From: a virus
DNA length: 38,167 bases
IMG/VR virus record: IMGVR_UViG_3300005581_000002
Location: 1-38,167 of that record
Reading direction: 5' to 3' (one strand)
Each line of letters begins with the position of its first letter. Position 1 is the first letter of the stretch. The position numbers and the translations under genes are program-made. This document shows, in pieces, positions 1 to 38,167 of the stretch. The notes under the pieces are model-generated. The model worked only from the letters and a program-made list of their open reading frames with translations, was not told the origin of the DNA and searched no databases.

Positions 1-120
1 CTGATGAACGACTTGACGATCTCCACCTCTGCCTTGCTGACGTTCGCCAGTTCAGCCAGCTCTATGATCCACCGGCCACGCACGTAACTTGCTGCATCCT
101 TGGTGTGCATAGGCGGCAGG
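1..120. repeat. 120-bp terminal direct repeat, left copy
   Basis: The first 120 bases are identical to positions 38048-38167. Joining the two ends through this overlap leaves the primase-helicase gene open and in frame, so the contig closes into a circle of 38,047 bp. The repeat may be an assembly overlap on a circular or circularly permuted genome. A genuine short terminal repeat of the packaged DNA is possible but less likely, because the repeat lies inside a gene. Confidence 0.97.
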
Positions 121-866
121 TTGTCTCCGAAGAACTCCAGCCCGGCTAATATCTTTGCGGTTGTGGATTTGAATGCACCCTGCGCACCCTCCAATATCAG
201 CACACCATCAGCCTTGCAGCCCGGCTGCATCGCCCGTGCGACTGCGCTAACCATCCACTTCAGGCCAACCTCCTCGACATATTGCTGTTCCATAGGGTCG
301 CCAGCTTCTGCGCCGCAATACGTTGTCAACCACTTAGCCACACGCGGAACATTATCCCAGCCTGCTGCTGCGGCCTCCAGATAATCACGCAGCGGGTTGT
401 ACCTGTATTCCTGCACCACCTCATCGACGGCATCGGCCACCACGTTCTTGTACGCACGCGGGAACTTGTTCTTGTTGAACCATGCTGTAGCGTTCAGGAT
501 ATGATGGTCTGCCAGTTCACGGACGTGAAAGTTGCTCTTTGGCGTCCGTGAACCCGGTATCGGCTTCATGAGCATCTTGCGCCCAGTGAACTCGTTATAG
601 GCAATAAAGCCATCCCATTCCGGGCAGCATCGCAAAGTGTGGCTTACGTTATAATGGTTGAATAAAGCATACCCCTTGGCATCGCGGATCAGCCCTTCTT
701 CCCATTCATCCGGCAGCACAACAATTGGCGCTGACCCGTCCTCCTCCGTAGACCAGACGCGTGCGCCATCTACACTTTTGCCCTTGTGAGCCTCCAGCAC
801 CTTAATCTGTTCAATGATGTCATCGTCATCGTCGTCCATCCAGTCGTCGAGTGTGTCGCCGCTCAT
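1..866 (-). CDS. VirE/D5-like primase-helicase, N-terminal part (continues at 38047)
   Basis: Reading starts at ATG 866 and overlaps the stop of the upstream gene as ATGA. It runs off base 1 and continues from 38047 to the stop at 37447, giving 488 residues in all. The N-terminus is very acidic, with a run of six Asp near residues 11-16. A Walker A motif GAQGAFKST lies at about residues 227-235, followed by the VirE-type WIIELAEL at 266-273 and the sensor-like FIGSTN near 312. These place it with virulence-associated E / D5-like superfamily 3-type replicative helicases of phages. It probably unwinds, and perhaps primes, the phage origin. Upstream genes for DUF2815 and an exonuclease fit a replication operon. 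No polymerase gene accompanies it. Confidence 0.93.
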   Translation of the reverse strand, partial: MSGDTLDDWMDDDDDDIIEQIKVLEAHKGKSVDGARVWSTEEDGSAPIVVLPDEWEEGLIRDAKGYALFNHYNVSHTLRCCPEWDGFIAYNEFTGRKMLMKPIPGSRTPKSNFHVRELADHHILNATAWFNKNKFPRAYKNVVADAVDEVVQEYRYNPLRDYLEAAAAGWDNVPRVAKWLTTYCGAEAGDPMEQQYVEEVGLKWMVSAVARAMQPGCKADGVLILEGAQGAFKSTTAKILAGLEFFGDNLPPMHTKDAASYVRGRWIIELAELANVSKAEVEIVKSFI

Positions 867-1183
867 GTCTCCCACCATTCCTTGTCGCTGGATGACTCAG
901 TGCCACCGTTCTTAACCGGCACCACTTCAGACGGGCTTCCACCTGTAGCCTCGGCGTGCCTGCGCTGCTCGTCTACTATTGCGGCTAGTTCAGCCGATGC
1001 AGCCTTCACGTACATGCGCAACTTGCGCAGGCTGTACGCCATACCCGGCACATCGGCTGCGCAGGCATAGTCTCGCGATATTCCAGCATGCAACTGGGCA
1101 AACTCTAGGTACTCGTCAAACGCGGCATACAGGGCTTCTTGCCCCTGCGCGATTGTGCTATTTAAATTGTTGTCGGCAGCCAT
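863..1183 (-). CDS. hypothetical protein, 106 aa
   Basis: I do not recognise the family. The product has an Ala-rich predicted helical N-terminal two-thirds and a polar, disordered-looking C-terminus. ATG 1183 is preceded by GAGGAT at a normal ribosome-binding distance. The stop overlaps the ATG of the primase-helicase gene as ATGA, so the two are probably translationally coupled. It lies between a DUF2815 ssDNA-binding-like gene and the helicase, so a helicase accessory or loader role is possible but rests on position alone. Confidence 0.8.
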   Translation of the reverse strand: MAADNNLNSTIAQGQEALYAAFDEYLEFAQLHAGISRDYACAADVPGMAYSLRKLRMYVKAASAELAAIVDEQRRHAEATGGSPSEVVPVKNGGTESSSDKEWWET

Positions 1184-3870: not shown

Positions 3871-4128
3871 CTATTGCGTTTTGCACTGTAAACTAAAACG
3901 TGCGGCTGCACGATGCTTTTTCCTCTTAAATCCCCAACGCACCATCGCACTCATGCGACCCTTCTCCCGGTTGCAGTAGATAGCTGGCCTTGTAACCAGA
4001 TCGCGGTTGCGGTTGACCACACCGATGATGACGTTCTTGGTCACACCCATGCCCATCCGGCGCACGATGTCTCGGGCTGCAACGCCGTCGTTCCACAGCC
4101 GGATGATCTCAGCGTTCCTCTCGTTCAT
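3871..4128 (-). CDS. GcrA-like DNA-binding protein, 85 aa
   Basis: The N-terminus, MNERNAEIIRLWNDG then ARDIVRRMG and VTKNVIIGVVNRNRDL, closely follows the helix-turn-helix of GcrA, the alphaproteobacterial cell-cycle regulator, whose pattern is W-x-E-G-x-S...IA-x2-LG-x-VTRNAVIGKVHRL. The C-terminus is strongly basic. ATG 4128 is chosen over an upstream start because GGAGAA lies 7 nt before it; the gene then overlaps the upstream zinc-ribbon gene by 20 bp. A role in diverting host RNA polymerase or reading methylated promoter DNA is inference. Only the N-terminal homology is visible. Confidence 0.72.
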   Translation of the reverse strand: MNERNAEIIRLWNDGVAARDIVRRMGMGVTKNVIIGVVNRNRDLVTRPAIYCNREKGRMSAMVRWGFKRKKHRAAARFSLQCKTQ

Positions 4129-4288
4129 CCCGTTTCTCCACATAGACACACGCTGTCTTGCTGCTCTTGGCGCACGACGGGCATTTTGCATCACGTATGA
4201 CCACCATCATCTCATCAACATCCATCGGCATGTCGCAAACAGGCCAGATCGTTCCGCACTTGCAAATCAGACGCAGTTTTCCACTCAT
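4109..4288 (-). CDS. zinc-ribbon-like protein, 59 aa
   Basis: ATG 4288 overlaps the stop of the upstream gene as ATGA. The 59-residue product holds ICKCGTIWPVC near residues 8-18 and AKCPSCAK near 34-41: two Cys pairs separated by about 20 residues, plus extra cysteines, as in small zinc ribbons. The charged tail EKRDEREER overlaps the start of the GcrA-like gene. No specific family is recognised. Confidence 0.75.
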   Translation of the reverse strand: MSGKLRLICKCGTIWPVCDMPMDVDEMMVVIRDAKCPSCAKSSKTACVYVEKRDEREER

Positions 4289-6521: not shown

Positions 6522-6871
6522 CACGCTTCCTCCGGTGCGTCTACTGCGGGCAGCTTGTTCGCCCAGTTGTTCGACTCACCCACTTGCTCAGTTATCATGC
6601 GCTCCATCTCGACACGCTCAATCTGCCTGACGACCAGCGTGGCATACCCTGATATGTCCTGCCAGTGATCCTTATCAAAGCAATTACCAGACAGGATGCG
6701 GGCGATCTTCATGGCCATTTGTTCAAGCGACTCGGCCATGTAATAGTCGAGGTCTTCAAACGCCCGTGTCGATTTCATCATGTGCTTCAGGCTTTGCGAC
6801 ATCTTGGCCACATGCTCAAAGTCACCATGCGTGCGTGCGCGTTCCGTTAGTACGTTTTGTATGTTGTCCAT
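6521..6871 (-). CDS. DUF6378-like phage protein, 116 aa
   Basis: The pattern is that of DUF6378 phage proteins: RARTHGDFEHVAKMSQSLKHMM, then ESLEQMAMKIARILSG, then DHWQDISGYATLV. Their length is similar and their function unknown. From general structure (helices with conserved E/D-x-Q/H-W-D), a MazG-like nucleotide-binding fold is sometimes suspected; this is inference. ATG overlaps the upstream stop as TAATG, coupling it to the DnaA domain IV-like gene. Confidence 0.82.
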   Translation of the reverse strand: MDNIQNVLTERARTHGDFEHVAKMSQSLKHMMKSTRAFEDLDYYMAESLEQMAMKIARILSGNCFDKDHWQDISGYATLVVRQIERVEMERMITEQVGESNNWANKLPAVDAPEEA

Positions 6872-7239
6872 TATTTTGCTCTCCGTTTGCGTATGGCGTG
6901 AAGGACTGAAGTGTGGTCGCGCTTAAACAAGTTTCCGATTTGCGTTAACGACCAGCCTCTGTTGCTTAGAAACTCGTAAATCTCAGCCCGTATCCTGACC
7001 ATCTCTGGCCTTCTGTCGGGCTGAATTAGTTCTCGCCAGACCATCCTGTGCGCCACCAGCACGGAGCTGATGAACTGCCTTGCATCATCAGATACCGGCG
7101 GCACACCCAGCTTAATTACCGGAGGCACTATTTTTACCGGCTGCACCTTTACAGGCTGAACTTTTACAGTCGGTACAGCAGCAAGCCTGCGAGCAACAGC
7201 TTTGTAGTGCTGTGTTAAATCCTCATACACGTTGCTCAA
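6871..7239 (-). CDS. stand-alone DnaA domain IV-like DNA-binding protein, 122 aa
   Basis: Residues about 77-120 read RRPEMVRIRAEIYEF then GWSLTQIGNLFKRDHTSVLHAIRK. This follows the DnaA C-terminal domain IV signature (R-P-x-x-M...IG-x2-F-x-x-RDHTTVLHA), including the R and RDHT residues that contact DnaA boxes. There is no AAA+ ATPase region. Residues 25-50 instead form a Val/Pro/Lys linker with repeated VQPVK. It probably binds DnaA-box-like DNA, either to mark the phage origin or to compete with host DnaA. The start is a TTG overlapping the upstream stop, with GGAG about 8 nt before it. The six repeats at 37207-37433 are candidate targets. Confidence 0.85.
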   Translation of the reverse strand: MSNVYEDLTQHYKAVARRLAAVPTVKVQPVKVQPVKIVPPVIKLGVPPVSDDARQFISSVLVAHRMVWRELIQPDRRPEMVRIRAEIYEFLSNRGWSLTQIGNLFKRDHTSVLHAIRKRRAK

Positions 7240-13526: not shown

Positions 13527-14435
13527 TTACCCCAAAAGGCCGCGAATGCCAAAGATGGACCGCTTGAATATTTCATCATCCCACTTGCCGCGATGCGTTT
13601 CCGCTGGTCTCTGAACCCACGACATATCTTCCTTCGCAGCGCCAGCTTTTGCAAGTGCGCCGCCCAATGATGCCAATGCGCTGCCGATGTTCGCTCCACC
13701 CATGCTGGGCGCGTAATCCTTAAATCCCATATCGGTAGCTGCGGCTGCAACTTCCTGCTGTGCAGGCAATGCCGCTCCAGAGAAACCCGGCTCCGTGACT
13801 TCACCATACTTGCGTGTGTCGATGCCCATTGCGCTGGGGACAGTATTCTGGCCGAGAAAGCCGCCCTGCCATTTTGTTCCAACCAGTCCACCAGTTGCCC
13901 CGCCAAGGACATCTTGGGCGAACTGGCCCCAAGGACCAGATGCTTGTGACGCTGGTGCTTGTGCGGCTGCTTTAGTTGGTTGGGTTCCCTCAAACTTCGC
14001 CATTATCTGCTGGGCAAAACCCGGACCAGTTACAGCCGCATTTCCAGAGTTCCATAATACTGCGTTCTCGCCAACCACAGATGTAGCCGGGCGATCTCCA
14101 GCAGCTAGAAGCTTCGTTGCTCCACCTGCGCCCTGTTGGTGAGCAAGATACAACTGCGCGGCAGACGGGTTCTCTATTCCAGACCTAGCCAAAACTTTTC
14201 GGTTGTTGACGGCCAATCTAGCAGCAGCATCAGCCGAGGCTTCAAAGCTATACGGGTCTCTTAACTTGTAGTCCTTGGCAGTGTCAGGCATAAACTGAAA
14301 GTGACCAGCCGCGCCGGAGTTTTTGTTGTAAAGATTTTTGCCGCTGTCGCTTTCAATCTGCCAAGTTCTGGCAAGGTATCCTGACGGAAGGTTGTACTTC
14401 CGCTCTAGGTTCGCCATAATTTCAAATTGGTTCAC
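13527..14435 (-). CDS. virion-associated lytic transglycosylase, 302 aa
   Basis: The N-terminal about 120 residues match the SLT-type fold: WQIESDSGKN with the catalytic Glu, GAAGHFQFMPDTAKDY as the G-x-FQ-x-MP motif, and AQLYLAHQQGAGGA as the Y-x-x-H-x-QG motif. The rest is low-complexity Ala/Gly/Gln. It would locally open peptidoglycan during DNA entry. The start shown is a GTG with a G-rich upstream site, overlapping the PP-loop gene by 14 bp; ATG 14417 is the alternative. Confidence 0.9.
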   Translation of the reverse strand: MNQFEIMANLERKYNLPSGYLARTWQIESDSGKNLYNKNSGAAGHFQFMPDTAKDYKLRDPYSFEASADAAARLAVNNRKVLARSGIENPSAAQLYLAHQQGAGGATKLLAAGDRPATSVVGENAVLWNSGNAAVTGPGFAQQIMAKFEGTQPTKAAAQAPASQASGPWGQFAQDVLGGATGGLVGTKWQGGFLGQNTVPSAMGIDTRKYGEVTEPGFSGAALPAQQEVAAAATDMGFKDYAPSMGGANIGSALASLGGALAKAGAAKEDMSWVQRPAETHRGKWDDEIFKRSIFGIRGLLG

Positions 14436-15144
14436 TCTGGCTACCCCCGGTCACGTTGCCATAACGCACCCATTGCTTTTCAATCTCGGCGTCAATGACA
14501 GCCAAACGGCGCAGCATCTCTGCCTGTTTGTCGCCCTTCAGGTTATACACCCGTTTGCGGTTGTCATCCAGATAGGCCGTGCAATCCCAGCAATCGCGAC
14601 CTGTCTTCTCGCCTGCATCGTAGCCGGGCGGCATGATTGCATCCACAGACTTCAGGTACTCAAATACCTGCTCCTCAGTCCAGTCTTGGATCGGCATAAC
14701 GTACTCGATGCCGTCCACTATACGCCCATGCCGTGCCGCAGACTTGCGACGGTCATCGTTGCGCTGGCCTTTCATTAAATACTTAATGCCCAGCTTCAGG
14801 CAACCATTGTACAACGGCAACCAGATATTCGTCGCGCAGCAGTCCATGTTCGACTGCATTAACTGGTTGTCGTTGCCGCTGATGATTTTGCCGATCAGGG
14901 TATTTTCAACCGGCAGAACGTCAACAGGCCAGCCGCGTGCTTTGATGTTGCTGGGCTGGTCAGACTTGATGTGGACGAAATGCGGGAGGCGCTTTTTCCA
15001 GCCCTCCATATATTCAACCATCTCAGGATATGCCGCGCCCGTGTCCAGCCAGACAACATACAGATTGTCCCACCTGTGCTTGTTAAGGTACAGGCAGGCC
15101 AGACTGTCTTTGCCACCGGAAAACTGGAGCGCAGTATCAATCAC
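14422..15144 (-). CDS. PP-loop PAPS-reductase/DndC-like protein, 240 aa
   Basis: SGGKDS at residues 9-14 is the PP-loop ATP-pyrophosphatase signature, followed by VVWLDTGAAYPE as in PAPS reductases. Paired cysteines C102-C103 and C185-x2-C188, with a GQRNDDRRKS strand between, resemble the four-Cys iron-sulfur site of APS reductases and DndC. The KREECGLH-like tail of true reductases was not seen. It could reduce sulfate esters, or transfer sulfur to a nucleic acid or protein. It is locked between two virion genes by ATGA and a 14-bp overlap, so it is made late. Confidence 0.85.
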   Translation of the reverse strand: MIDTALQFSGGKDSLACLYLNKHRWDNLYVVWLDTGAAYPEMVEYMEGWKKRLPHFVHIKSDQPSNIKARGWPVDVLPVENTLIGKIISGNDNQLMQSNMDCCATNIWLPLYNGCLKLGIKYLMKGQRNDDRRKSAARHGRIVDGIEYVMPIQDWTEEQVFEYLKSVDAIMPPGYDAGEKTGRDCWDCTAYLDDNRKRVYNLKGDKQAEMLRRLAVIDAEIEKQWVRYGNVTGGSQSEPI

Positions 15145-18740: not shown

Positions 18741-19444
18741 GATCCCTCCTCATCAAGCCTCTGTTTACGGAAGTACCAAACTGCACCTGCCGCTGCGATG
18801 ATGACGAACAAGATCAGGACTGTCCCACTCAGACCGTTTAGAAGATCACCTCCCTCCTTGATAATAGGTAGGACTTCTTGCACGACGGCGATAGTTCCTA
18901 GTCCACCAGCCGCCACGGCAGCATTGGCTTCCTTGGACTGCGTGATTGATTTACGCGCTTTTGGCTGGTCAGGTTCTGCGCGGGCCTCATCAGCAGAAAT
19001 CGGCTTCTCGGTATCAAGGCCACGCCACAGTTTTACTTCTGCTCTCCTGCGACGAACCAGACCCGGCAACTCTTTACCACCGCCCTTGGTCCATTTCATA
19101 AACTCGGCAGGAACTTCGTCAAACTTCTCAGCGTTGACCTTTTTCAACAGGGTGGACTTGGCCAAGGCTCCCACGCCCGCATTGTAGGCAAAGTCCACCA
19201 GAGCATCGAACTGCCCCTGCGACAGGTCAACCTTGACGTACTTACGCACGCCATCCTCGTATTGGACTAGATCGCGATCTAGCCGGTTAAATGCTTCCTC
19301 TCTTGTAATTTCATCTGTTGCCTTGACTGGAGGGTTTGTTGCTCCTATACCAATAGTCCATACCCCGGCGGGGCATTTATATGCCTTTAGTTTTACGCCT
19401 TCAAAATCAACGAGCATGTCTTTACCGGATTGGCTCATTCTCAT
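18737..19444 (-). CDS. GH24 lysozyme (endolysin) with C-terminal membrane segment
   Basis: Starting at ATG 19444 (AGGTG six bases upstream; a GTG three codons earlier lacks a site), the 235-residue enzyme shows E15, C24 and T30 in the E-8-(D/C)-5-T spacing of T4-type lysozymes (DFEGVKLKAY...CPAGVWTIGIGAT). The catalytic Asp is replaced by Cys, as in several active phage lysozymes. Unusually, after a charged linker the C-terminus holds a membrane segment (TVLILFVIIAAAGAVWYF) and a basic tail. Cleaves peptidoglycan at lysis. Confidence 0.9.
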   Translation of the reverse strand: MRMSQSGKDMLVDFEGVKLKAYKCPAGVWTIGIGATNPPVKATDEITREEAFNRLDRDLVQYEDGVRKYVKVDLSQGQFDALVDFAYNAGVGALAKSTLLKKVNAEKFDEVPAEFMKWTKGGGKELPGLVRRRRAEVKLWRGLDTEKPISADEARAEPDQPKARKSITQSKEANAAVAAGGLGTIAVVQEVLPIIKEGGDLLNGLSGTVLILFVIIAAAGAVWYFRKQRLDEEGS

Positions 19445-19456
19445 GGGAGACACCTA

Positions 19457-20011
19457 ATGGTTGAGGAAGTTTGGAAACCCATCAAAGGGTGGGAGGAGAT
19501 AGCCGAGGTTTCTAATCTTGGCCGAGTAAAGGTGTTAGCACGTTCTGCTAATTTTATTAAAAACGGGAAGCCGCAAAAATGCTTTTTACGTGAAAAGATC
19601 GTTAGCCCATATGTGGCACAAAATGGATACTTAACAATAGCGTTTATGGTTAACAAGGTTCGGAGAAAGGTTCTTGTCCATCGAGCAGTTTCACTTGCTT
19701 TTGTTGAAGGACATTTTGATGGAGCCACCGTCAACCACATAGATGGGAACAAATTAAATAACGCGCCAGAAAACCTCGAATGGATGTCTTTGTCCGACAA
19801 CACAAAGCATGAATGGGCAACTGGGCTTGTTGACCTTCGCGGGGAAAAGCACCCATCCCACAAGCTGACAGCAGAACAGGTTCGCATCATTAGGAAGTTG
19901 TTGAGGTCGCAGATCACCAACCCTAACGAGCTATCTAAACTTTTGGACGTTTCCGCAGCCATTTTGTATTTAATCCATAAAGGAAAAAGGTGGGGAAGTT
20001 TGGATGATTAG
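19457..20011 (+). CDS. free-standing HNH homing endonuclease (NUMOD4-HNH)
   Basis: The only convincing rightward gene. ATG 19457 has GGGAGA upstream. EEVWKPIKGWEEIAEVSNLGRVKVL is the NUMOD4 DNA-binding start. The HNH core follows as VHRAVSLAF...VNHIDGNKLNNAPENLEW, with the catalytic His pair and Asn. The C-terminus (LTAEQVRIIRKLL...) is a helix-turn-helix-like domain. It starts 12 bp from the lysozyme start on the opposite strand and has a visibly AT-richer composition than its neighbours, so it is probably a selfish insertion. Confidence 0.92.
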   Translation: MVEEVWKPIKGWEEIAEVSNLGRVKVLARSANFIKNGKPQKCFLREKIVSPYVAQNGYLTIAFMVNKVRRKVLVHRAVSLAFVEGHFDGATVNHIDGNKLNNAPENLEWMSLSDNTKHEWATGLVDLRGEKHPSHKLTAEQVRIIRKLLRSQITNPNELSKLLDVSAAILYLIHKGKRWGSLDD

Positions 20012-34111: not shown

Positions 34112-34539
34112 CGAGTTCCTAACAGGCCGGAGTCCTCACGACGCTTTTTCATAAAAACTTCCTGCGGAGATAGCCCAAGCTGCTTTGCTGACCAAAGTAT
34201 CTGGCGGTACTTACCGTCATAAAGCATGTCATTCGGTTGCCCAAGGGTTTTGAGAGCAGAGTCATATGCTTCAGGTTTAGTAGGCCATTTGGTCGTGTAC
34301 GAGTCTTTTACTTTGTCGTTCTGCAAGCTAACTAAAGACCACTGCTCTGGGTCATCGGTTATTTTAGGCTCAGGTCCAGTGCCGCTGCCGGGCTGGGTAA
34401 TCCGAATTGCGCCAGAATTTATAAGGCGGTCCCAGTTAAGTGGCTGGTATGGCAACTTACGGGACAAATCTCCAAATGCCTCATCATCGAGGTTTGGCGG
34501 TATGTACTCATCCCAGTCGCCGCCCAGCAAGCCAGCCAT
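34108..34539 (-). CDS. hypothetical protein, 143 aa
   Basis: ATG 34539 overlaps the terminase stop as TGATG. The middle is low in recognisable motifs; the C-terminus MLYDGKYRQILWSAKQLGLSPQEVFMKKRRED is helical. Similar length genes occur after terminase in many phages. Function unknown. Confidence 0.73.
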   Translation of the reverse strand: MAGLLGGDWDEYIPPNLDDEAFGDLSRKLPYQPLNWDRLINSGAIRITQPGSGTGPEPKITDDPEQWSLVSLQNDKVKDSYTTKWPTKPEAYDSALKTLGQPNDMLYDGKYRQILWSAKQLGLSPQEVFMKKRREDSGLLGTR

Positions 34540-35936
34540 CACACGATCCCTCGGATGCCGCGCTTAATGGACTTACCCGGAACCCAAGCCGTAGCCCTGC
34601 CGCCGACACCAGCAGCAACGCCAGCGAACGTCAGGCACAAGCTATCTGCCAAGTCAGGTGATCGCATGCCACGCTTCCTTAATCCATCCTTCGACTCTAC
34701 CACAAGTTTCCCTGAACTTGTAAATGTGTATCTCGGGGCAACCAATTCCATCCGCAGCATGTCGTCCTTGGGCAGCTTGACCGACCGGGTGGCCAGCCAA
34801 TCCTTTGCCGCCATCCACAGTTCATCCCGCAGCTTGTTTGCATTCGGATTCATGGCTGAACTCTCAGACACGTTCACATCCCGCACATTATACCCCTGCT
34901 CCCGCAGGCGATCCGCAACACCGGAGCCAAGGCCAATCGTGTCTACGCATATCTCAATAGGCCGGTCAATCTTAGCCTCATTAACCACCATGCCCACAGT
35001 CTGCATCAGGTCCAAGCCGCCCCATGACTTGATCTCCTCAACCACGGAACCGCGCCGCTTGCAGAGGGCAGTCCTGTCAGTGCCGAAGCGGGCAACGTCC
35101 AACCCGTACACCACAGGCTCATCGCCGCTAACCGTCAAGTCTCTGTTAATTGCACCATCAACCAACTCAGCAGGAATAAGAGTATCGTCGTCTGCAAGAG
35201 CAAACTCTCCCAAGACCCGTATTCGAAAAGCATTGCTCGACTCCCCATATGTGGACGCAATCTGGCCAACGAAGTCAGACGACACCAGAGGATTATCAAT
35301 ACAGCTGACGTGCATCCGCTTCCAGTCTGACGCCAACTGGTGATGCGTTTTATAGAACAAACCGCTGTTGCGGGTGGGATTAGAAATCAGGATAGTCGTC
35401 GCGCTGTGTCCCGACATGGAACCTGCCGCCGACTCGAACACAGTCTCCGGTATAGCCGACGCCTCATCCACCACCAGCAAAACATGCTCACTATGCACCC
35501 CGGCAAGCGCCTCTGGCCTGTCTGCCGAGGATGTCCTTGCAGAGATGAAGCTAGACTCCGGCGCAGCCTTAAATGCAATTTTATCCGAGTAGACCTCGAA
35601 ACTGTCGCGCAGTATGGGAGGCAGCTTGTTGATCCATGTCTTCAGTTCAGCGAACAAAGCATCAAACAACTGAGCCGACGTGGGTGCCGTCACAACACCT
35701 TTTTGTGGATAACGGCAGACCATGTGCCAGATCAATGCCCATGCACAGGCTGTCGATTTGCCGACACCGTGGCCAGCCCTGACGCTGATGCGCCGTTCGC
35801 CGCTGGCAACTGCGACAAGGAAATCACGTTGCCACGGCTGCGGGGTAGCATGCAAAACATCAGTAACAAAGCCAACAGGGTCGTGGCCGTAGTTCGTGAC
35901 GAAATCGATGAATTGTGACTTGGACTCAACTGTCAT
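34539..35936 (-). CDS. terL: large terminase subunit (TerL)
   Basis: The 465-residue packaging motor shows Walker A AGHGVGKST (54-62) and Walker B LLVVDEA (153-159), followed by the coupling motif TTILISNPT (180-188). The RNase H-like nuclease starts at VVYGLDVARFGTDRTAL (D280) with VDTIGLGSGVADRL (D332) and SPDLADSL near the end. All key residues appear intact. It translocates and cuts concatemeric DNA. Confidence 0.96.
   Translation of the reverse strand: MTVESKSQFIDFVTNYGHDPVGFVTDVLHATPQPWQRDFLVAVASGERRISVRAGHGVGKSTACAWALIWHMVCRYPQKGVVTAPTSAQLFDALFAELKTWINKLPPILRDSFEVYSDKIAFKAAPESSFISARTSSADRPEALAGVHSEHVLLVVDEASAIPETVFESAAGSMSGHSATTILISNPTRNSGLFYKTHHQLASDWKRMHVSCIDNPLVSSDFVGQIASTYGESSNAFRIRVLGEFALADDDTLIPAELVDGAINRDLTVSGDEPVVYGLDVARFGTDRTALCKRRGSVVEEIKSWGGLDLMQTVGMVVNEAKIDRPIEICVDTIGLGSGVADRLREQGYNVRDVNVSESSAMNPNANKLRDELWMAAKDWLATRSVKLPKDDMLRMELVAPRYTFTSSGKLVVESKDGLRKRGMRSPDLADSLCLTFAGVAAGVGGRATAWVPGKSIKRGIRGIV
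35704..35712 (-). promoter_or_regulatory. exact DnaA-box match (TTATCCACA)
   Basis: Third exact DnaA-box copy, inside the large terminase gene. May be chance; noted because the phage encodes a DnaA domain IV-like protein. Confidence 0.35.
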
Positions 35937-36091
35937 GTGTAAACTTTATAATTTTGTGCATGGGGTGGTGCATTAGCAGCCGCACCCGGGGTAGGGGTAG
36001 CCGGGGGGGGTCTATCGGCATCCAAGTGTAACCATTTCCACTGTGACGCCCATGATCCAGTGCGACCTGCTCCCATTCGCATAATATCCAT
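35933..36091 (-). CDS. 52-residue gene between small and large terminase
   Basis: The stretch between terminase genes is one open frame. ATG 36091 overlaps the upstream TAA as TAATG, and its TGA overlaps the TerL ATG as ATGA, so both junctions are precise. Product MDIMRMGAGRTGSWASQWKW then DADRPPPATPTPGAAANAPP: a Trp-rich start and a Pro/Ala-rich, flexible remainder. A run of eight C on the coding strand is a potential slip site. Role unknown. Confidence 0.65.
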   Translation of the reverse strand: MDIMRMGAGRTGSWASQWKWLHLDADRPPPATPTPGAAANAPPHAQNYKVYT

Positions 36092-36555
36092 TATGGAACC
36101 TCATCGGTGCTGCCTATGACTACTGCATCAATGATCGTTGGTTCCGATTGAATAACGGTTACATCTTTTGCACTGTCGCTGGCTGCCAATTGTTCCCTGC
36201 GAACACGCGCCCTGTCGTTCAATTCCACCAGTGCAGCAAGGTGAGCCTGTGCCGTGTCGGTCACTGACACATCCACATGCTGACGCACCTTACCCATTGT
36301 TCTGTCAAGGATTTCCTTGGTGGCCTGTAGCTCTGCTGCCGGGTTGCCGCAGGTCATCAGGCGTTCGAGGTTGGTGATCGCCTTGTCCGTCATGCCTTGC
36401 AGCCTGCGCATCATCAGCGCGTCGCGGCGCGTCCTGCCCGGGAACGGGTTTATGTTCCCTCGCTTAATGCGACCTGCCTCATCACGGACCACTGTGAGGT
36501 TGTCCATAAGCGATTGCTCATGTACTTGTTTCAATTCTGCTTCGGCTTCAGGCAT
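36091..36555 (-). CDS. putative small terminase subunit (TerS), 154 aa
   Basis: A mostly helical protein: NPFPGRTRRDALMMRRLQGMTDKAITNLERLMTCGNPAAELQATKEILDRTMGK has the build of terminase small subunits and lies just upstream of TerL. The conserved helix-turn-helix is not certain from sequence. Role inferred mainly from order. Confidence 0.6.
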   Translation of the reverse strand: MPEAEAELKQVHEQSLMDNLTVVRDEAGRIKRGNINPFPGRTRRDALMMRRLQGMTDKAITNLERLMTCGNPAAELQATKEILDRTMGKVRQHVDVSVTDTAQAHLAALVELNDRARVRREQLAASDSAKDVTVIQSEPTIIDAVVIGSTDEVP

Positions 36556-36604: not shown

Positions 36605-37171
36605 TCAAAACGGCAGCTCATCCCCACCTCGCGGTATGCGTCCTGCTGCCACTGTAGCACCCGGAAACACCTGCTTCACTGCCGCCACTGCCACGCCTGC
36701 ATCAGTCGCCTGCATCAACCGTGCGACCTCCTCAAACGAGACAACAATGTGATCCGGGTAACGTCTGGATAACCCGACGCCCTCGTTCGCCCGTGCGCAG
36801 AAGCAATACTTCAGCTTGCCATCATCTGACGCATGGAACCAGACATTGCCTGCATCCTCTGGCTTATGTCCTGCTGCCCGTGCAGCCTTGTCCATCGCCA
36901 TCCAGCCTTTTGCCAGTGACGCAGACTTCTGTGCGGCCAGCTTTGCATCTCCCAGTCTTATCGCCTCATCGAGCTGCCTTTGCGCCAATGCGAACATGGC
37001 AGCAAGGTCAGGCTGCACGAGTTGCTCCAGCCTGCCTATTCCCCATTGCCCTTCAACCCGTATCGCAGCCTCATCGCTGTACTGTACCGCCGCCCGCCAT
37101 GCGGCTTCGCTGTCCGATTTAACCGGGTTTGTGATGTTGTTTGCTGCTGTAGTTTTCGGTCGAACGGCCAC
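36605..37171 (-). CDS. first late-operon gene, hypothetical, 188 aa
   Basis: The start is GTG 37171 with AAGGGG upstream. The product has an Ala-rich helical body (AALAQRQLDEAIRLGDAKLAAQ-like), then NVWFHASDDGKLKYCFCARANEGVG and a SRRYPDHIVVSFEEVARLM segment. I do not recognise the family. It is the first gene after the candidate control region, so it may be made at the switch between replication and packaging. Confidence 0.72.
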   Translation of the reverse strand: MAVRPKTTAANNITNPVKSDSEAAWRAAVQYSDEAAIRVEGQWGIGRLEQLVQPDLAAMFALAQRQLDEAIRLGDAKLAAQKSASLAKGWMAMDKAARAAGHKPEDAGNVWFHASDDGKLKYCFCARANEGVGLSRRYPDHIVVSFEEVARLMQATDAGVAVAAVKQVFPGATVAAGRIPRGGDELPF

Positions 37172-37206
37172 GTTTTATGCCCCTTTTTAACACCTTAACC
37201 TTAGCA

Positions 37207-37433
37207 AGTGAATAGTGAATACAAACACCGTGGACACACGCCTACGGTTGTTAAGTGTATTTTACCATATAGTGAATATCCCTACCCCTCCAGACATACT
37301 GCCCTATAGCCCTGTATATACAATAACTTATAAATGTTTCAAAGATAAGTATAAAACAGGTATCCTATTCACTCCATTTCAACTTCTCCCTTCAAGTCTC
37401 AAAAACAGGGCTATTCACCAATTCCTATTCACT
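37207..37433. repeat. symmetric iteron array, candidate origin or operator
   Basis: The 8-bp AGTGAATA occurs rightward at 37207-37214, 37214-37221 and 37271-37278. Its complement TATTCACT occurs at 37366-37373, 37412-37419 (last base C) and 37426-37433. The three pairs mirror each other around 37316-37322, where the palindrome TGTATATACA (37313-37322) lies. The gap is AT-rich and non-coding, between the end of the helicase gene and the first late gene. The core TATTCAC equals the core of DnaA box TTATNCACA. Likely a phage replication origin or a late-switch operator. Confidence 0.75.
37315..37342 (-). promoter_or_regulatory. candidate late promoter
   Basis: Leftward -35 TTGAAA (5/6 match) and -10 TATATA (4/6) with 16-bp spacing lie within the symmetric iteron array, about 145 bp before the first late gene start. 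Binding of the iterons would directly affect it. Moderate match only. Confidence 0.4.
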
Positions 37434-37446
37434 TGCCTAGTTTATG

Positions 37447-38167
37447 TTAAAAGACATCTGCCTCCATGTCACCAAGGCCACTGGCCACACCCGCCGACGC
37501 CTTTACCTCGGCTGCTTGCTGCTGTTTAGCTTGCTGCTCTGCATCTCGTTTCCTGATAAACCTGTTCTGCGCTTTGTATGTTCCGCTGGTCATTCTGCCG
37601 CTGCGGAACCATCCGTTTTGCATCAGGATTGACTGCACCCTGTTGCTCATCATCCGGTCCTTCCGGCCCACCTCGATCAGCATGTCGGTGAGTATCTGCG
37701 GTATGCACACCTCTGTTTTGTCCTCAACGATTTCCAGCACATTACTAGTCCACGGGTCTTCCAGCATCCTGTCGCCCTGTTCTTGGGCTGCGATGCGCTC
37801 CACGGCGGCAGACAGCCACCACGTTTCGCCAGCCCTGTACAGCGCAACGGCCTCACCCCACAACTGATCGCGATCTGCTTGCAATGCCTTCACGTCAACC
37901 CGGCCAACCTGCACCGGCCAGAACCTGCGATTGCCCGTGTCGTCCCGCAGGTAGTCTGTGCGGTTTGTGCTGCCGATGAACACGCATTGCCGTGGATATG
38001 ATACCTCGTTGCGCCCATATGCCGGTCTGAACCGCTCCTCGGTGCGGCTGATGAACGACTTGACGATCTCCACCTCTGCCTTGCTGACGTTCGCCAGTTC
38101 AGCCAGCTCTATGATCCACCGGCCACGCACGTAACTTGCTGCATCCTTGGTGTGCATAGGCGGCAGG
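37447..38167 (-). CDS. VirE/D5-like primase-helicase, C-terminal part
   Basis: Continuation of the 488-residue primase-helicase gene started at 866. It contains WIIELAEL, RTEERFRPAYGRN, the sensor-like FIGSTN and FWPVQVG of the VirE helicase core. The C-terminal about 100 residues include an MSNRVQSILMQNGW winged-helix-like stretch and a Gln-rich tail. The last 120 bp repeat the start of the window, so this entry and the 1-866 entry describe one gene. Confidence 0.93.
   Translation of the reverse strand, partial: LPPMHTKDAASYVRGRWIIELAELANVSKAEVEIVKSFISRTEERFRPAYGRNEVSYPRQCVFIGSTNRTDYLRDDTGNRRFWPVQVGRVDVKALQADRDQLWGEAVALYRAGETWWLSAAVERIAAQEQGDRMLEDPWTSNVLEIVEDKTEVCIPQILTDMLIEVGRKDRMMSNRVQSILMQNGWFRSGRMTSGTYKAQNRFIRKRDAEQQAKQQQAAEVKASAGVASGLGDMEADVF
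38048..38167. repeat. 120-bp terminal direct repeat, right copy
   Basis: Exact duplicate of 1-120, inside the primase-helicase gene. See the left copy. Confidence 0.97.

Follow-up and report, generated by a model that had tools for sequence, protein, structure and literature searches.

An inverted iteron array after a VapE-type helicase gene: a candidate replication origin in a tailed phage and its relatives

In the SaPI and PICI elements, the gene of the initiator helicase is followed directly downstream by a functional origin, whose iteron sequence varies between elements and is read by the C-terminal domain of the helicase (PMC7581432, PMC6092414). SCCmec Cch2 is a self-loading helicase; its C-terminal domain recognizes short direct repeats that lie downstream of the operon (PMC7581432). 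In the PLE satellites of Vibrio, the DNA-binding domain of RepA co-varies with the origin, and RepA and ori function as cognate pairs only (PMC8263062). In P4, the crr region lies immediately after the alpha gene and contains 8-bp type 1 repeats in both orientations.

We describe here a non-coding gap in a tailed phage genome that is very probably a phage replication origin of the SaPI/PICI initiator-helicase type. By the window we mean the whole stretch of DNA analyzed, 38,167 bases in length. Its first 120 bases (1–120) are identical to the last 120 (38048–38167), which closes the record into a circle of 38,047 bp. A gene encoding a helicase of 492 amino acids spans the circle junction. The preliminary description had placed a candidate phage origin directly after a replication helicase gene. 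The gap does begin at the helicase stop, the gene crossing the ends of the record, and the origin reading is now supported by comparative evidence. The helicase carries a VapE-like domain (PF05272), with no fused primase recognized, and its best PDB match is PriRep1 with dsDNA (7pds; sequence E = 6e-50, fold E = 3e-7), which makes it a helicase of the Rep/Pri-Rep kind, as in SaPI and PICI. The arrays of related loci also follow the helicase gene. Based on the PriRep1 match and this SaPI/PICI-like arrangement, the gap is classed with the SaPI/PICI-type origins, here in a tailed phage. In contrast to those elements, the window is a phage genome of about 38 kb and not a satellite, its origin function is predicted, its helicase matches the VapE-like domain only, and its iterons are of their own GTGAATA type. 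VapE-type helicases are common in phages, and the window helicase has matches in 647 of 50,697 phage records.

The other systems differ from the window in various ways. In the SCCmec Cch2 origin only three iterons have been found, without a mirror array, and the element is not a phage. PLE RepA_N belongs to a different, unrelated family of initiators, for which no helicase activity is predicted, and the PLE iterons are larger and semi-palindromic (PMC7145576). The P4 crr repeats are mostly GGTGAACA, with two copies of GGTGAATA, identical to the fifth iteron of the window; however, the ori of P4 is a distinct site, some 4.5 kb away from crr. The VapE profile gave no match to P4 alpha with all filters off, and the hhalign probability was 0.1%. 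Homology to alpha, an analogous initiator, was thus not detected in sequence. Since no sequence match between alpha and VapE is detectable, the similar P4 iteron may be due to coincidence or convergence. At the DNA level, comparison of the gap with named phages gave chance-level matches only.

The octamer AGTGAATA occurs five times in the window, counting both strands, and all five copies lie inside the gap (Table 1), whereas 100 shuffles gave 0.70 copies on average and never more than 3. A one-base variant, GGTGAATA, provides a sixth copy on the minus strand, where the plus strand reads TATTCACC. All six copies of GTGAATA in the window, on either strand, fall in this one 257-bp gap, and no iteron copies were found in the other gaps of the window. 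The sequence thus bears out the six 8-bp copies reported initially, one of them with a one-base change and three in each orientation, as well as the view that such an array is unlikely to be random. The near-symmetric layout claimed for it holds for orientation, which is strictly sorted (three plus copies, then three minus copies), but the mirror spacing is only approximate.

Table 1. Features of the candidate origin and its surroundings in the window.
Feature	Position	Strand	Basis or remark
Terminase large subunit (context)	34539..35936	-	phrog_2
Terminase small subunit (context)	36091..36555	-	phrog_2538
Conserved gene just downstream of the proposed origin	36605..37171	-	
Whole non-coding gap, proposed replication origin	37190..37446	none	
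Iteron 1, AGTGAATA	37207..37214	+	sequence match
Iteron 2, AGTGAATA, one base common to iteron 1	37214..37221	+	sequence match
Iteron 3, AGTGAATA	37271..37278	+	sequence match
AT-rich core, proposed melting site	37312..37371	none	contains palindrome TGTATATACA
Iteron 4, AGTGAATA	37366..37373	-	sequence match
Iteron 5, variant GGTGAATA	37412..37419	-	same 8 bases as variant P4 crr type 1 repeat
Iteron 6, AGTGAATA	37426..37433	-	sequence match
Helicase C-terminal part, proposed initiator	37447..38167	-	PF05272; gene continues at 878..1
Predicted winged-helix DNA-binding domain, C-terminal	37549..37749	-	residues 140-205 of the 239-aa piece, ~393-458 of 492
Predicted wing (beta hairpin)	37552..37611	-	structure model; K451 codon 37573-37575
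Helicase N-terminal part	1..878	-	same gene across the circle junction

The 60-bp stretch with the highest A+T content in the window (77%, compared with 45% overall) begins at 37312–37315, inside the array. The 10-bp AT palindrome around which the array had been described is present at 37313–37322. The window has 14 palindromes of this length, two of them with at least eight A/T. On its own the palindrome therefore counts for little, and it is incidental, because the site is not palindromic in the related loci L040, L041, L045 and L046, and it was rejected as a conserved central feature. In related loci the stretch between the array arms is usually more AT-rich than its region; the AT-rich core, and not the palindrome, is the conserved part. 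A second inverted pair flanks the AT-rich core within the arrays in the gaps of L040–L046, such as GAGACAT...ATGTCTC in L041–L043 and CAACACATAG...CTATGTGTTG in L046. The longest complementary stretch averages 6.7, compared with 3.9 in shuffles, and the pair is weakest in the window itself.

Relatives were gathered by terminase and helicase searches of viral contigs, many of which are contig fragments. In a strict array test, a single 7-mer had to occur five or more times, with two or more copies on each side and orientations fully sorted; this test misses arrays with degenerate repeats or displaced by inserted sequence. Of the 156 related loci, 48 have a strict mirror array close behind the helicase stop. 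The controls gave none, either in 428 stretches taken upstream in these loci or in 780 shuffles, and the contrast holds at other, relaxed settings. An inverted iteron array after the helicase gene occurs in nearly all close relatives with a readable stretch and in many distant ones. The repeated word differs among them: GTGAATA in L036, L039, L040 and L046, (A/G)CGAATA in L037 and L038, CTGGATA in L041, L042, L043 and L075, GTGAACA in L045, and repeats containing GGGAGACAG in L144. The array shared by L044 and L047 is degenerate, and its word could not be assigned to a type; for L143 and L145, the short stretch that was read shows no array. Several hundred extra bases separate the helicase stop from the array in L043 and in L044/L047. 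Among more distant VapE-type helicase genes, arrays of unrelated words follow (TGTAGAC in L049 and TGTTCCG in L055, for example). Strict arrays were not found after the VapE helicase in every locus, and some are differently arranged. Named phages gave a mixed picture, with clear repeat clusters after the VapE-type gene in some (Marinobacter PS3, Staphylococcus 2638A, Pseudomonas Haddon and LPPA36), which are not strictly mirror-sorted. The cluster is weaker in VarioGold, and none was found in this stretch of Croceibacter P2559Y. Thus, a search of relatives for the same element and spacing, as suggested in the preliminary description, recovers the arrangement in nearly all close relatives, but the sequence of the element is not conserved. 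Instead, changes in the element seem to go along with changes in the helicase's DNA-binding domain.

This domain is predicted to be a winged helix, in a structure model of the C-terminal 239 residues with pLDDT mostly 86–94 in this part. The predicted wing is formed by strands 186–192 and 201–205 of the modeled piece, and residues M445, K451 and A452 (192, 198 and 199 of the piece) lie in or at it. A possible role of these residues is suggested by L037 and L038. Compared with the window, 26 of 234 gap positions outside the iterons differ in these loci, the intervening DNA being 89% identical. All six sites have nevertheless changed from GTGAATA to (A/G)CGAATA, one of them involving an indel; in order, they read ACGAATA, ACGAATA, GCGAATA, GCGAATA, CNGAATA (across a one-base alignment gap) and ACGAATA. 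L039, with 48 of 231 other positions changed, yet retains GTGAATA at five of six sites. The L038 helicase has six private changes in 492 residues (S6N, T185M, M445L, K451N, A452G and Q468R), three of which, M445L, K451N and A452G, fall in the predicted wing. The window helicase has 13 private changes and that of L039 has 32, of which one (S442D) lies in the winged helix. Because L037 and L038 have the same gap and helicase C-terminus, the switch counts as one evolutionary event; it is nonetheless the strongest evidence for the proposed origin.

Loci with GTGAATA or GTGAACA have K or R at residue 451, those with RCGAATA have N and those with CTGGATA have A. We hypothesize that K451 is the prime candidate for a specificity residue. 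Over 52 loci, the similarity of iterons and of C-terminal domains, controlling for the core, is weakly related (partial rank correlation 0.08), and 41 of 1000 permutations gave a value as high. Recognition of the iterons by the C-terminal domain is proposed from the joint change of iterons and wing residues and from the predicted winged helix. One possible interpretation of L037/L038, which we rate as somewhat short of probable, is that all six sites were re-specified by very few substitutions in the wing, namely K451N and perhaps also M445L and A452G. Origin specificity would then flip as a unit, with the rest of the helicase and of the origin nearly unchanged, and the further iteron types would represent replication-specificity groups. 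Selection for such groups might come from antagonists that target the origin, or from co-infecting phages and satellites that compete with one another.

Nearly all genes of the window, including the helicase gene, are on the minus strand. The gap is followed by a conserved gene of no assigned function, the genes of the small and large terminase subunits, and further structural genes. The first of these has no PHROG or Pfam match, is kept in all close relatives compared and has two changes private to L038 (A8T and V173M); its product could in principle read the iterons. Two terminase modules are found in the group, one with a window-type small subunit (TerS) and one with an Sf6-type TerS (PF20901), the latter adding a methylase gene, part of which weakly resembles ParB. 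The modules swap (L038, L041 and L046 versus the window, L039 and L043) independently of the origin type. Elsewhere in the window, a GcrA-like protein (3871–4194, minus strand; PF07750, E = 1e-4, below the cut-off) hints at an alphaproteobacterial host. A gene for a NUMOD4/HNH endonuclease (19430–20011), apparently the sole gene on the plus strand, lies in a low-GC stretch and is likely a homing endonuclease insertion. A protein with a PAPS-reductase domain is encoded among the later genes (14422–15144, minus strand). Rfam found no RNA family, ARAGORN found no tRNA, and no terminator-like site was found.

The DnaA box is TGTGNATAA, and its core is fitted by the GTGAATA core of the iterons. It could be argued that the iterons are DnaA-box-like sites in an oriC-like origin, read either by host DnaA or by a phage protein resembling DnaA domain IV. 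A small protein (6871–7239, minus strand) has such an end (PF08299, just under the cut-off), and a DnaA-C-like protein of this kind is encoded by the phage and by most close relatives examined; the contigs of L043, L049 and L147, which may be fragments, gave no match. However, AGTGAATA and GGTGAATA match the core only and not the full nine-base box. The RDHTS/RDHTT/RDHST motif of this protein is nearly constant across loci with GTGAATA (L039, L040 and L046) and GTGAACA (L045), and most words of the family, such as TGTAGAC and TGTTCCG, are unlike DnaA boxes. We therefore regard a DnaA-read origin as improbable.

Transcription runs from the gap towards the operon of terminase and structural genes, a location that would also suit an operator or promoter region, controlled by a repressor or an activator, for the downstream late operon in place of an origin. 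Promoter-like matches in it are few and near the shuffled expectation (2 versus 0.8), and the other gaps are without iteron copies. Moreover, the iteron switch is paired with few changes, and the helicase domain predicted to bind DNA holds most of them. These observations make a purely regulatory array slightly less probable still than DnaA sites. Regulation by the same sites could nonetheless accompany an origin role.

Repeats near terS are known at pac sites. The least probable reading, that the array is a pac-like site of packaging initiation read by the TerS encoded about 600 bases downstream, has the proximity of the terminase genes in its favor but can be given little weight, since GTGAATA occurs with window-type TerS (window, L039) and with Sf6-type TerS (L046), CTGGATA occurs with window-type TerS (L043) and with the other module (L041), so that the iterons do not follow the terminase, and the repeats of distant phages stay with the helicase, as in Marinobacter phage PS3, where endolysin and hypothetical genes come next.

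We thus favor an initiator-helicase origin of the SaPI/PICI type and propose the following mechanism. The VapE-type helicase, encoded immediately upstream, would use its C-terminal winged-helix domain to bind the GTGAATA iterons. Each of the two opposed iteron triplets would load one helicase assembly, so that the two assemblies face each other with the AT-rich core between them. This core would then melt, and two forks would depart in opposite directions. We infer the binding by the helicase, the melting of the core, the bidirectional start and the use of the gap as the main origin of the phage. A minimum of cumulative GC skew at the gap, which had been put forward as a check, did not appear; the detrended extremes lie at about 4.6 kb and 31 kb instead. 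GC skew is uninformative here because nearly all genes are on one strand.

The layout is of a known kind, and close relatives have undergone a concerted swap of all words together with a few helicase residues. This concerted change of words and helicase makes the evolution of origin recognition directly testable. Specificity between initiator and origin is otherwise studied by domain swaps, and the natural switch offers a near-minimal pair for origin recognition by an initiator helicase and for the change of its specificity. If many VapE-type helicases precede their own iterons, the origins of uncultured phages would be predictable from sequence.
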